This document shows, piece after piece, positions 19,945 to 35,611 of a stretch of DNA of 46,105 nucleotides. The notes beneath the pieces are model-generated. The model was not told the origin of the DNA. It did no database searches and was given only the letters and a program-made list of their open reading frames with translations. Position 1 is the stretch's first letter; every line of letters starts with the position of its first letter. The DNA is from Alphaproteobacteria bacterium (GTDB lineage Bacteria > Pseudomonadota > Alphaproteobacteria > Geminicoccales > Geminicoccaceae), in the NCBI GenBank assembly GCA_009908425.1, contig JAAAPF010000351.1, positions 1 to 46,105 on the forward strand. The letters run 5' to 3'. The position numbers were made by a program, and so were the translations under genes.

Positions 19945-20218
19945 CCGTGGAGGGGTTCTGTTGCCCGGCCCCCTCCCGGCCGCGCTTACCGTTTGTTACG
20001 CGGCAGCGAGCACCAAATCATTGTCATTGGCACTTGTGAAGTTGGCCCGATAACGGCGGTACCATGCCGGGCGAAGGCCTGCCCTTTACCACGCGCGTCG
20101 AGCCTGGTTCGCCCCCGCAGAGCCCCGAAGGGTGGTGATGGTGGAGGCGCCGGGTACTGCCCCCGGGTCCGCTACGCTTATTTCGGCAGGCGTTTATCGC
20201 CATAGTCGCCGTCGCGAC
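19945..20218 (-). ncRNA. ssrA: Two-piece (permuted) transfer-messenger RNA
   Basis: Alphaproteobacterial split tmRNA; ends are approximate. The acceptor piece comes first and ends in CGCCTCCACCA at 20139. Its T-arm stem CCGGG/CCCGG encloses loop GGCAGTA. A 22-base internal spacer (20138-20117) follows, then the coding piece begins GGGGGCG at 20116. That start pairs over 7 bp with CGCCTCC to rebuild the acceptor stem, and a GGCTCGACG D-loop-like element follows. The tag frame at 20031-19996 reads ANDNDLVLAAA then TAA. A GGAGGGG/CCCCTCC helix near 19946-19975 belongs to the 3' part. Role: rescue of stalled ribosomes and tagging of products for ClpXP. Confidence 0.93.
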
Positions 20219-20224
20219 AACCTT

Positions 20225-20253
20225 GATATAGGCTCGTCGGCCGCGCCTGCAAA
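20225..20253 (-). promoter_or_regulatory. Predicted ssrA promoter
   Basis: On the minus strand, TTTGCA (-35, 20248-20253) and TATATC (-10, 20225-20230) are separated by 17 bases, a sigma-70 layout, predicting a start near 20218 just ahead of the tmRNA acceptor piece. The divergent thyX gene starts 36 bases away on the other strand. Confidence 0.55.
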
Positions 20254-20288
20254 GGGCCCGCGCTCCCCCACCCCACGGAAAGGCGACG

Positions 20289-33375: not shown

Positions 33376-34353
33376 ATGAACGGCGCCCGGCACGTCCGCC
33401 TCGCCATCGTCGGCTCCGGTCCGGCGGGCTACACCGCCGCGATCTACGCCGCACGTGCCAACCTCGCCCCGATCCTGTTCGAGGGCCTGCAGGCCGGCGG
33501 CCAGCTCGCCATCACCACCGACGTCGAGAACTATCCGGGCTTCGCCGAGCCCATCCAGGGCCCCTGGCTGATGGAACAGATGGCGGCCCAGGCCCGCCAT
33601 TGCGGCGCCGAGCTGGTCAGCGACCTGATCGCACGGCTGGATCTCGGCGCGCGGCCGTTCGTGCTGCAGCGCGACAACGGTGAGACCCTCACCGCCGACG
33701 CCGTGATCCTCGCCACCGGCGCCCAGGCCCGCTGGCTCGGGCTGGAGAGCGAGCGCAAGTACATGGGCATGGGCGTCTCCGCGTGTGCCACCTGCGACGG
33801 CTTCTTCTTCCGCGGCAAGGAGGTGGCGGTGGTCGGCGGCGGCAACTCGGCGGTCGAGGAGGCGCTCTATCTGGCGCAGATGTGCGAGAAGGTGACCGTC
33901 ATCCACCGCCGCGACGCGCTCCGGGCCGAGCAGGTCATGCAGCAGCGCCTGTTCCGCAACCCCAAGATCGAGGTGGTGTGGGATCACGTCGTCGACGAGA
34001 TCGTCGGGACCGACATGCCACCGGGGGTCACGGGCGTGCGCGCGAAGCACGTGCGCACCGGCGAGATCACCACGCTCGACGTCGACGGGGTCTTCATCGC
34101 CATCGGCCACGACCCGGCGACCGGCCTGGTGAAGGGTCAGGTGGCGATGGACGGCGAGGGCTACGTCCAGACCGCGCCCGACGGCACCGCCACCGAGGTT
34201 GCCGGCTTCTTCGCCGCCGGCGACGTCCAGGACAAGATCTACCGCCAGGCCGTCACCGCCGCGGGCACCGGCTGCATGGCGGCGTTGGAGGCCGAAAAGT
34301 ACCTGGCCTCGCTGGAGGAGCGCGCCGGGCTCGACAGCGCCGCCGGGGATTAG
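33376..34353 (+). CDS. trxB: Thioredoxin-disulfide reductase
   Basis: 325-residue low-molecular-weight TrxB. The FAD-binding motif is VGSGPAGYTAA near residue 12. The redox pair Cys137-x-x-Cys140 is in SACATCDG. The NADPH-binding motif VVGGGNSAVEEAL follows, and the C-terminal FAAGDVQDKIYRQAVTAAG closes the FAD site. It keeps thioredoxin reduced in the cytosol. A GGAGGAGGA site precedes the ATG. The LysR gene starts 3 bases after the stop, so the two are in one transcript. Confidence 0.97.
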   Translation: MNGARHVRLAIVGSGPAGYTAAIYAARANLAPILFEGLQAGGQLAITTDVENYPGFAEPIQGPWLMEQMAAQARHCGAELVSDLIARLDLGARPFVLQRDNGETLTADAVILATGAQARWLGLESERKYMGMGVSACATCDGFFFRGKEVAVVGGGNSAVEEALYLAQMCEKVTVIHRRDALRAEQVMQQRLFRNPKIEVVWDHVVDEIVGTDMPPGVTGVRAKHVRTGEITTLDVDGVFIAIGHDPATGLVKGQVAMDGEGYVQTAPDGTATEVAGFFAAGDVQDKIYRQAVTAAGTGCMAALEAEKYLASLEERAGLDSAAGD

Positions 34354-34356
34354 CGC

Positions 34357-35253
34357 ATGCTGGACTGGGACCGCATCCGGGTCTTTCACGCCGTCGCCGA
34401 GGCCGGCAGCTTCACCCGCGCCGCCGAGCGCCTCAACCTCAGTCAGTCCGCCATCAGCCGGCAGATGGGGGCGCTCGAGGAGGATCTCGGCACCGCGCTG
34501 TTCCACCGCCACGCCCGCGGTCTCGTGCTCACCGAGCAGGGCGAGATCCTGCAGGAGGCGGCGCGGGCGGTGGCGGCCCGGATGCGCGACGCCGAGGCCC
34601 ATCTGAGCGAGAGCAAGGACCGCCCGGCGGGCCATCTGCGGATCAACACCACCATCGGCTTCGGCGCCGGCTGGCTGACGCCGCATCTGGACGAGTTCTG
34701 CGCGCGCTATCCGGACATCAACCTGACGCTGTTGGTCCAGGACAGCGAGGTCGATCTCGCCATGCGCGAGGCCGACGTCGCCATCCGCATGCAGCCGCCG
34801 ACCCAGGGCGACCTGGTCCGCCGCAAGCTGATGGTGGGTCACACCCACCTCTACGCCGCCGAGAGCTACATCGCCCGGCACGGCGAGCCCGCCGGTCTCG
34901 CCGACCTCGACGGCCACGCCCTGATCGTCTACGGCCACGAAAACGCGCCGCCGGCGCCGAGCCTCAACTGGCTCGTCCATGTCGGCCAGGACGAGCAGGC
35001 GCCGCTGCGGCAGGCCAAGCTCACGGTCAACAACGTCATCGCGATGCTGCGCGCCGCGGAATCGGGGCTCGGCATCGCCACCCTTCCCGACTACCTCGCG
35101 CGCGACCGCCAGCTGGTGCGCATCCTGCCCCAGATCGAAGGCCCGTCCTTCACCGCCTATTTCGTCTACCCCGAGGAGCTCCGTAACTCGAAGCGGGTGG
35201 CGGTTTTCCGGGATTTCCTCCTGGAGAAGGTGGGTGGGGAGGATTCGTGGTGA
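34357..35253 (+). CDS. LysR family transcriptional regulator
   Basis: 298-residue LysR-type regulator. The N-terminal winged helix-turn-helix is at residues about 1-60 (FHAVAEAGSFTRAAERLNLSQSAISRQ). A linker helix and a two-lobed effector domain (about 90-295) follow. It is coupled to trxB, a pairing common in alphaproteobacteria that suggests control of a redox or amino-acid pathway. Its effector and targets are not deducible here. The MLDWDRIRVFHAVAEAGS start is typical for this subgroup. Confidence 0.93.
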   Translation: MLDWDRIRVFHAVAEAGSFTRAAERLNLSQSAISRQMGALEEDLGTALFHRHARGLVLTEQGEILQEAARAVAARMRDAEAHLSESKDRPAGHLRINTTIGFGAGWLTPHLDEFCARYPDINLTLLVQDSEVDLAMREADVAIRMQPPTQGDLVRRKLMVGHTHLYAAESYIARHGEPAGLADLDGHALIVYGHENAPPAPSLNWLVHVGQDEQAPLRQAKLTVNNVIAMLRAAESGLGIATLPDYLARDRQLVRILPQIEGPSFTAYFVYPEELRNSKRVAVFRDFLLEKVGGEDSW

Positions 35254-35290
35254 CGCGCGCATCGTCGCACGCCTGACCTGAAATTTGGGG

Positions 35291-35320
35291 CTAGCGTGGG
35301 CCCGCCGGCTGCGCTAGATA
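35291..35320 (+). promoter_or_regulatory. Possible promoter/operator of the small RNA
   Basis: TAGATA at 35315-35320 is a reasonable -10 element; no good -35 is present at 17 bases. A CTAGCG/CGCTAG inverted repeat (35291-35296 and 35312-35317) spans the core promoter region and could bind a dimeric regulator. Confidence 0.35.
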
Positions 35321-35326
35321 CCGCAG

Positions 35327-35460
35327 TGCAGCAAGCGGACTGGGACGCTTGCTGATCGGGCCTCGCGCCCGAACCGGTTCGCCGGTAGCGAAGTGCGCTT
35401 CGCCCCAGACGTTTAGCCTCCCTGATCAAGCTCGCCGGGTCTCTGACCCGGCTTTTTTTT
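35327..35460 (+). ncRNA. Candidate structured small RNA, family not recognised
   Basis: A 134-base segment downstream of the LysR gene with no credible reading frame but dense structure. H1 is 35329-35337/35346-35354 (9 bp), H2 35356-35361/35367-35372 (6 bp), H3 35373-35377/35382-35386 (5 bp, UUCG loop) and H4 35388-35393/35398-35403 (6 bp). CCCAG at 35404-35408 is complementary to CUGGG in the H1 loop (35340-35344), which would give a pseudoknot enclosing H2-H4. A single-stranded GCCUCCC (35416-35422), complementary to Shine-Dalgarno sequences, precedes a canonical terminator. It could be a trans-acting sRNA or a 3'-derived RNA of the LysR transcript. It does not resemble 6S, SRP RNA or RNase P as I know them. 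Confidence 0.65.
35434..35460 (+). terminator. Rho-independent terminator of the small RNA/LysR transcript
   Basis: Perfect 8-bp stem GCCGGGTC/GACCCGGC with loop TCT, followed by eight T residues. Textbook intrinsic terminator. Confidence 0.95.
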
Positions 35461-35515
35461 GTCCTCTCCCTCGTAAAAGGGATTGCGACTTTCGTCAATA
35501 ACCTTCGCGGCGATT

Positions 35516-35549
35516 TTGCATTGCAGCAACAACTTTTGCTGCAATGCAA
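35516..35549. repeat. 14-bp perfect inverted repeat in an AT-richer island
   Basis: TTGCATTGCAGCAA (35516-35529) and its exact complement TTGCTGCAATGCAA (35536-35549) flank a 6-base loop. It lies between the plus-strand terminator and the minus-strand msrP stop. No T-run follows on either strand, so it is not an obvious intrinsic terminator. It could be a protein-binding palindrome or a remnant of a mobile sequence. Confidence 0.75.
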
Positions 35550-35611
35550 TAATGACCCTCGCGGGACTATGGGCTGTTCGACGTCCATTCGCCGCCGGCG
35601 GCGCCGCCCGC

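Follow-up and report, generated by a model that had tools for sequence, protein, structure and literature searches.

A conserved small RNA gene behind the trxB-vtlR pair of Geminicoccaceae, with a loop-tail pseudoknot and a predicted anti-Shine-Dalgarno seed

In Agrobacterium and Sinorhizobium, the small RNA (sRNA) genes abcR1 and abcR2 follow the gene pair trxB-vtlR/lsrB, and the LysR-type regulator VtlR/LsrB activates AbcR1 (PMC7486931, PMC8844928). The trxB-vtlR order is conserved across the Alphaproteobacteria, and we took the consensus of the VtlR box, GCAT-N3-TG-N3-T, from the same source (PMC7486931). SorX of Rhodobacter is a published sRNA cut from the 3′ UTR of an OmpR-type gene, and the published targets of both SorX and SorY are transporters. 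In S. meliloti, a further sRNA, mmgR, is bound and controlled by PhaR, whose motif has the core YGCRNYGCR and can lie between the -10 element and the transcription start, as at SMa1961 (PMC12542648).

Here we describe an RNA gene at positions 35,327–35,460 of a 46,105-nucleotide stretch of DNA from a member of the Geminicoccaceae (Alphaproteobacteria); we refer to the whole stretch as the window. The features of the locus are as follows.

33376–34353, plus strand: trxB, thioredoxin reductase (TIGR01292, 403.7 bits against a cut-off of 343), syntenic in relatives
34357–35253, plus strand: LysR-type regulator, VtlR/LsrB orthologue by trxB-vtlR order, with Pfam HTH_1 and LysR_substrate
35267–35279, plus strand: VtlR-type box GCACGCCTGACCT, one mismatch to the consensus, about 55 nt before the predicted start
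35315–35320, plus strand: predicted -10 element TAGATA, in register with a TA-rich element that immediately precedes the box in relatives
35322–35333, plus strand: PhaR-type operator CGCAGTGCAGCA across the predicted start, fitting the core YGCRNYGCR
35327–35460, plus strand: sRNA gene with predicted start and end, supported by homologues and covariation
35329–35354, plus strand: hairpin H1, 9 bp (35329–35337 with 35346–35354), with compensatory changes at all four counted stem pairs
35340–35344, plus strand: 5′ strand of the pseudoknot, CUGGG, in the H1 loop, paired in every parsed homologue
35356–35403, plus strand: internal hairpins H2 (35356–35372), H3 (35373–35386) and H4 (35388–35403), from folding; variable in relatives
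35404–35408, plus strand: 3′ strand of the pseudoknot, CCCAG, directly after H4; most other lineages use these bases for a local hairpin
35417–35423, plus strand: single-stranded anti-Shine-Dalgarno (anti-SD) stretch CCUCCCU, the predicted mRNA-pairing seed, within AGCCUCCCUG, which is invariant in 32 homologues
35434–35460, plus strand: intrinsic terminator, 8-bp stem (35434–35452) followed by U8

The predicted start of the RNA is 74 nt past the LysR stop codon on the same strand, and the next gene downstream, a molybdopterin oxidoreductase gene (msrP), is convergent. In relatives, too, the RNA is usually found directly 3′ of trxB-LysR, although some Geminicoccaceae copies sit away from vtlR. 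Among 97 named loci with enough upstream DNA, this LysR gene lies on the same strand less than 900 nt upstream of the RNA at 78 (median about 230 nt), and trxB is also present at 68 of those 78. The window LysR protein has matches at E<=1e-50 in 83 of 142 genomes of the class, and because of this class-wide conservation and the gene order, rather than from a tree, we assign it as the VtlR/LsrB orthologue. In a genome of the window's own genus (G001), the copy at the syntenic position (L064) differs in its 5′ part and has a covarying pseudoknot, CUGAGG/CCUCAG, and the copy most similar to the window RNA sits at another locus; exchange or duplication of 5′ domains has therefore taken place. Elsewhere in the window, 19946–20257 on the minus strand hold an alpha-tmRNA gene (permuted form).

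The earlier note on this DNA had read the 134 bases as a densely folded RNA gene with four adjacent hairpins. The dense folding is borne out by a predicted fold of -58.9 kcal/mol (z = -2.52) that none of 200 dinucleotide shuffles equals, and all four hairpins are present where they were placed. Only H1 is conserved, however; H2–H4 are not individually conserved, and relatives differ in the number and sequence of their internal hairpins. The conserved parts of the sRNA are H1, the pseudoknot, the anti-SD stretch and the terminator, and both the GCCUCCC stretch (35416–35422) and the terminator with its eight U residues are in the sequence as described.

The most conserved part of all is a 3′ module, CCCAGACGU(U/G)(U/A)AGCCUCCCUG, followed by the terminator. 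A DNA search of 60 genomes gave matches in 30 of the 31 Geminicoccaceae genomes, with one to four copies in each, and in one genome outside the family. The alignment was nearly full length for two homologues (79–81% identity), and the others share chiefly the 3′ module. A covariance model of the 61-nt module matched all 31 Geminicoccaceae genomes and, at E<=1e-3, 206 of 385 genomes sampled across the class, many with E values below 1e-15. In a pattern scan, the matches listed included Azospirillum, Roseomonas, Reyranella, Thalassospira, Kiloniella, Acidiphilium and others. Several genomes carry tandem copies. One of them has the pseudoknot RNA three times, about 333 bp apart (L006, G011:C126), with a fourth copy on contig C116 (L239) that bears a compensatory change of its own; in Thalassospira (L126, L206 and L208) the class-wide form occurs twice in tandem 3′ of vtlR, which recalls the tandem abcR1/abcR2.

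The RNA had been said to belong to no nameable family, and an Rfam search of the window RNA indeed gave no family at the curated gathering cut-off, nor did the RNA at 20 sampled loci. A permissive search matched the 3′ part only, with SorX (RF02784) at 27.2 bits against a cut-off of 46.6 and suhB/mmgR (RF00519) at 21.9 against 41. The open literature, searched by the conserved letters and by AbcR/VtlR together with Rhodospirillales, did not describe the RNA, and the accessible part of an Azospirillum brasilense sRNA paper gave no link to it. Thus, although Hfq-type anti-SD sRNAs are a known kind, this family is absent from Rfam and from the open literature searched. Rfam 15 lacks a strongly conserved RNA gene that about half of the sampled class genomes carry, and the gene is therefore unannotated in such well-studied genera as Azospirillum, Roseomonas and Thalassospira.

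The earlier note had also proposed that the CUGGG of the first loop pairs with the CCCAG after the fourth hairpin. With relatives of the same gene order collected, covariation is seen both in H1 and in this pseudoknot. Its 5-bp core forms in 33 of 33 parsed homologues, a count that none of 20,000 shuffles reached in which the tails were redealt among the copies (mean 25.0, maximum 29). The loop search admitted eight spellings irrespective of the tail, so that complementarity was not presupposed. Three of the core pairs show compensatory double changes: U-A/C-G in two copies, G-C/A-U in three and G-C/A-U in four. Two copies that the script left unparsed keep the pairing as judged by eye. An independent count on a MAFFT alignment covered 29 relatives, three rows of the alignment being out of register at H1. 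For the named structure as a whole, 93.4% of cells were paired, compared with 83.4% after shuffling (none of 500 shuffles reached the observed value) and at most 58% when the partners were slid; the pseudoknot helix was still 95.9% paired, with changes on both sides at four of six pairs. From this covariation we conclude that the H1-loop/tail pseudoknot is almost certainly real.

The same tail strand folds in two ways. Across most of the class the module has the form ACGUCU-CCC-AGACGU-GAAG-CCUCCCUG-UU..., in which CCCAGAC closes a local hairpin and the anti-SD stretch comes after it. Most Geminicoccaceae copies, including the window RNA, have lost the 5′ arm of this hairpin, and in them CCCAG(A) pairs with the H1 loop 75–120 nt upstream. 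Six Geminicoccaceae copies (in G003, G004 and G005) retain the local hairpin instead of the pseudoknot. In the course of evolution, one conserved RNA strand has thus given up its partner in a local hairpin and taken a distant loop instead, a change that the compensatory substitutions support, and the pseudoknot that replaces the hairpin is a new structural variant.

Upstream of H1, the earlier reading had overlooked a PhaR-type box at the predicted start, as it had the orthology of the LysR gene with VtlR/LsrB, downstream of which AbcR lies in rhizobia, and the class-wide extent of the RNA. A PhaR-type core box stands immediately before H1 in 33 of 41 Geminicoccaceae copies. A separate count of PhaR-like boxes scored R as a mismatch, so its thresholds were one step too strict, and the enrichment holds either way. 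A genome-wide scan with the degenerate core YGCRNYGCR returned about 2900 matches per strand, fewer than the reversed control, and is uninformative because of GC content, so we used the exact box TTGCANTGCAGCA instead. This box occurs at five sites in the genome. Three of them lie ahead of genes for phasins; Pfam PF09361 confirms two of these genes, and the third is identified by its phasin-like sequence only. The remaining two sites are an inverted pair at 35516–35549. They lie in an inverted repeat at 35511–35554 (TTGCATTGCAGCA ... TGCTGCAATGCAA) in the interval that separates the sRNA terminator from the convergent msrP. This repeat also accounts for mir-33-like Rfam matches; it precedes no recognisable ORF and is perhaps the remnant of a second tandem sRNA promoter.

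A PhaR gene is present in the window genome, and control of the sRNA by PhaR in the window's family is probable. The RNA also occurs in several small genomes that lack PhaR, so such control would not be universal and would be an addition in some lineages. Five loci from genomes of 1.6–2.3 Mb that have no PhaR (L031, L101, L107, L113 and L115) keep the class-wide RNA, apparently without a PhaR-type box. As for VtlR, its exact motif is present in 26 of 131 type-B (class-wide) upstream regions against 3.15 in shuffles (maximum 8), about 8-fold, whereas enrichment in type-A regions is weak (18 against 8.75 expected, shuffle maximum 16). In the window itself, the one-mismatch box at 35267–35279 is the sole sign pointing toward AbcR-like activation by VtlR/LsrB, and we regard control of the sRNA by VtlR as an even proposition.

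These upstream elements bear on whether the RNA amounts to no more than the 3′ UTR of the LysR mRNA with its terminator, or is an sRNA processed out of that mRNA with no promoter of its own. Its position on the same strand shortly past the LysR stop would suit such an origin, as would SorX, whose similar 3′ end belongs to a published 3′-UTR-derived sRNA. Nevertheless, a conserved TA-rich, -10-like element and a PhaR-type box directly precede H1, and a promoter-operator region of this kind is evidence against a passive 3′ UTR. In addition, extra copies stand apart from LysR, three lie in tandem in G011, and the anti-SD decamer is invariant. We therefore consider a 3′ UTR origin improbable; homologues, covariation and the independent promoter-operator region favor the reading of the earlier note, and the window RNA is, with very little doubt, a genuine sRNA gene as judged from its sequence and that of its relatives.

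What would such an sRNA do? The explanation that we find likely overall is a trans-acting, Hfq-type anti-SD sRNA under PhaR, and possibly VtlR, that represses transporter and metabolic mRNAs. An RNA of about 134 nt would be transcribed from its own promoter, which the PhaR operator overlaps, and, like the phasin genes, it would probably be derepressed when PhaR is titrated by PHB granules; the neighboring VtlR/LsrB-type regulator may also activate it. The pseudoknot would bring the 5′ domain onto the tail such that CCCAG is masked and CCUCCCU exposed. With Hfq, whose gene is present in the genome, CCUCCCU (and perhaps CCCAG too) would pair with Shine-Dalgarno regions and lower translation of transporter and metabolic mRNAs. 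AGGGAGG-N3-9-ATG sites number 52 in the genome, compared with 7 in a reversed control, and include two TRAP solute-binding protein genes and a glutamine synthetase gene; the candidate transporter targets are in line with AbcR, SorY and SorX, which also target transporters. The prediction has no discriminating power, since every AGGGAGG site would suit every RNA with CCUCCC. Repression by anti-SD pairing is a probable activity of the sRNA.

Alternatively, instead of repressing mRNAs, the RNA could be a sponge or a protein-binding RNA, either CsrB-like or a decoy that captures other anti-SD sRNAs through its CUGGGA loop. Binding sites could be offered by the dense hairpins and by the H1 loop, which is conserved and rich in purines, and CrfA in Caulobacter is a known sponge of anti-SD sRNAs. 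However, in all parsed homologues the loop has the tail of the same RNA as its partner, and the invariant element is the C-rich stretch and not the loop, so that this role, too, is improbable.

A relocated member of the alpha-r8 family (mmgR/SisA-D) would share with the window RNA its general plan of a hairpin, a single-stranded CCUCCCU and a terminator, as well as PhaR control, predicted here and known for mmgR in S. meliloti, and the weak suhB match is in keeping with this. We rejected membership on score (21.9 against 41), on the alpha-r8 10-mer and on the neighboring gene: the 10-mer UUUCCUCCCU is absent from the window RNA, which reads UUUAGCCUCCCU instead, and no N-formylglutamate amidohydrolase gene was found beside it, whereas alpha-r8 RNAs are mostly linked to that gene (FGase; PMC12559287) and the window RNA is linked to trxB-vtlR. 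Moreover, a separate RNA with GGCGUUUCCUCCCU coexists with the window-type RNA in several relatives, and any match to RF00519 over its cut-off is confined to 2 of the 31 Geminicoccaceae genomes. Seed flanks and locus thus both differ, and relocation of an alpha-r8 RNA is quite unlikely. Elsewhere in the window's own genome, one locus (L063, G000:C37, minus strand) has two tandem copies of another anti-SD RNA at 1201–1280 and 1657–1736, each with GUGUCCUCCCAGUGAGCUUCAAGCGGCGACC and a terminator, and a weak suhB match. Finally, a cis-acting riboswitch or leader, which a pseudoknot and a terminator in a structured RNA might bring to mind, can be set aside as extremely unlikely because the next gene, msrP, is convergent and leaves nothing downstream to control.

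The trans-acting anti-SD sRNA that we favor resembles AbcR1/AbcR2 (alpha-r15) in its locus, directly after trxB-vtlR/lsrB. AbcR RNAs of about 115–120 nt act by anti-SD pairing and occur in tandem in some lineages (PMC7486931, PMC8844928, PMC5461406), and the class-wide form shares with them a CUCCCA hairpin motif (as GUCUCCCAGAC) and a further C-rich motif, also single-stranded in AbcR, ahead of the following hairpin. The window RNA itself differs: in place of the AbcR M1 motif, CUCCCA in a hairpin, it has GCCCCAG held in the pseudoknot; in place of M2, GUUCCC between hairpins 1 and 2, its single-stranded motif is CCUCCCU; and the pseudoknot and PhaR-type operator are features of the window form. 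The ar15 model (RF02345) matched none of the 385 genomes, and likewise none of its own positive controls. The 3′ end of SorX and SorY, ACCUCCCUGUU with a GGCCGGG terminator, also resembles that of the window family, but the window RNA scores below both cut-offs (SorY, RF02651, 15.4 against 111), and we rejected SorX membership on its score. At one locus (L287, G071), the RNAs that follow vtlR in tandem match ar14 weakly (28.7 bits), and their hairpin loop is of the CUCCUCCC type.

In 20 class genomes, a first, filtered scan gave no strong match adjacent to the vtlR-like gene; when the 700 nt downstream of that gene were searched without the filter, module-like RNAs still appeared in about half of these genomes. 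In G052, the RNA after vtlR resembles SorY (62.1 bits, E 6e-11, below the cut-off), and anti-SD RNAs after vtlR may therefore be an old feature of the class. More tentatively, and we would sooner doubt than assert it, trxB-vtlR-sRNA could be an ancient class-wide module joining redox control by VtlR to PHB and PhaR, in which AbcR, the SorY-like RNA and the window family diverged from one sRNA gene; the shift of the Geminicoccaceae CCCAGAC seed from a hairpin into a loop-tail pseudoknot might then act as a switch of seed access. The sRNA offers a testable link among the redox regulator VtlR/LsrB, PHB storage via PhaR and anti-SD control, and may well be the Rhodospirillales-side counterpart of the VtlR-linked anti-SD sRNAs that are represented by AbcR in rhizobia and by a SorY-like RNA in one distant relative.
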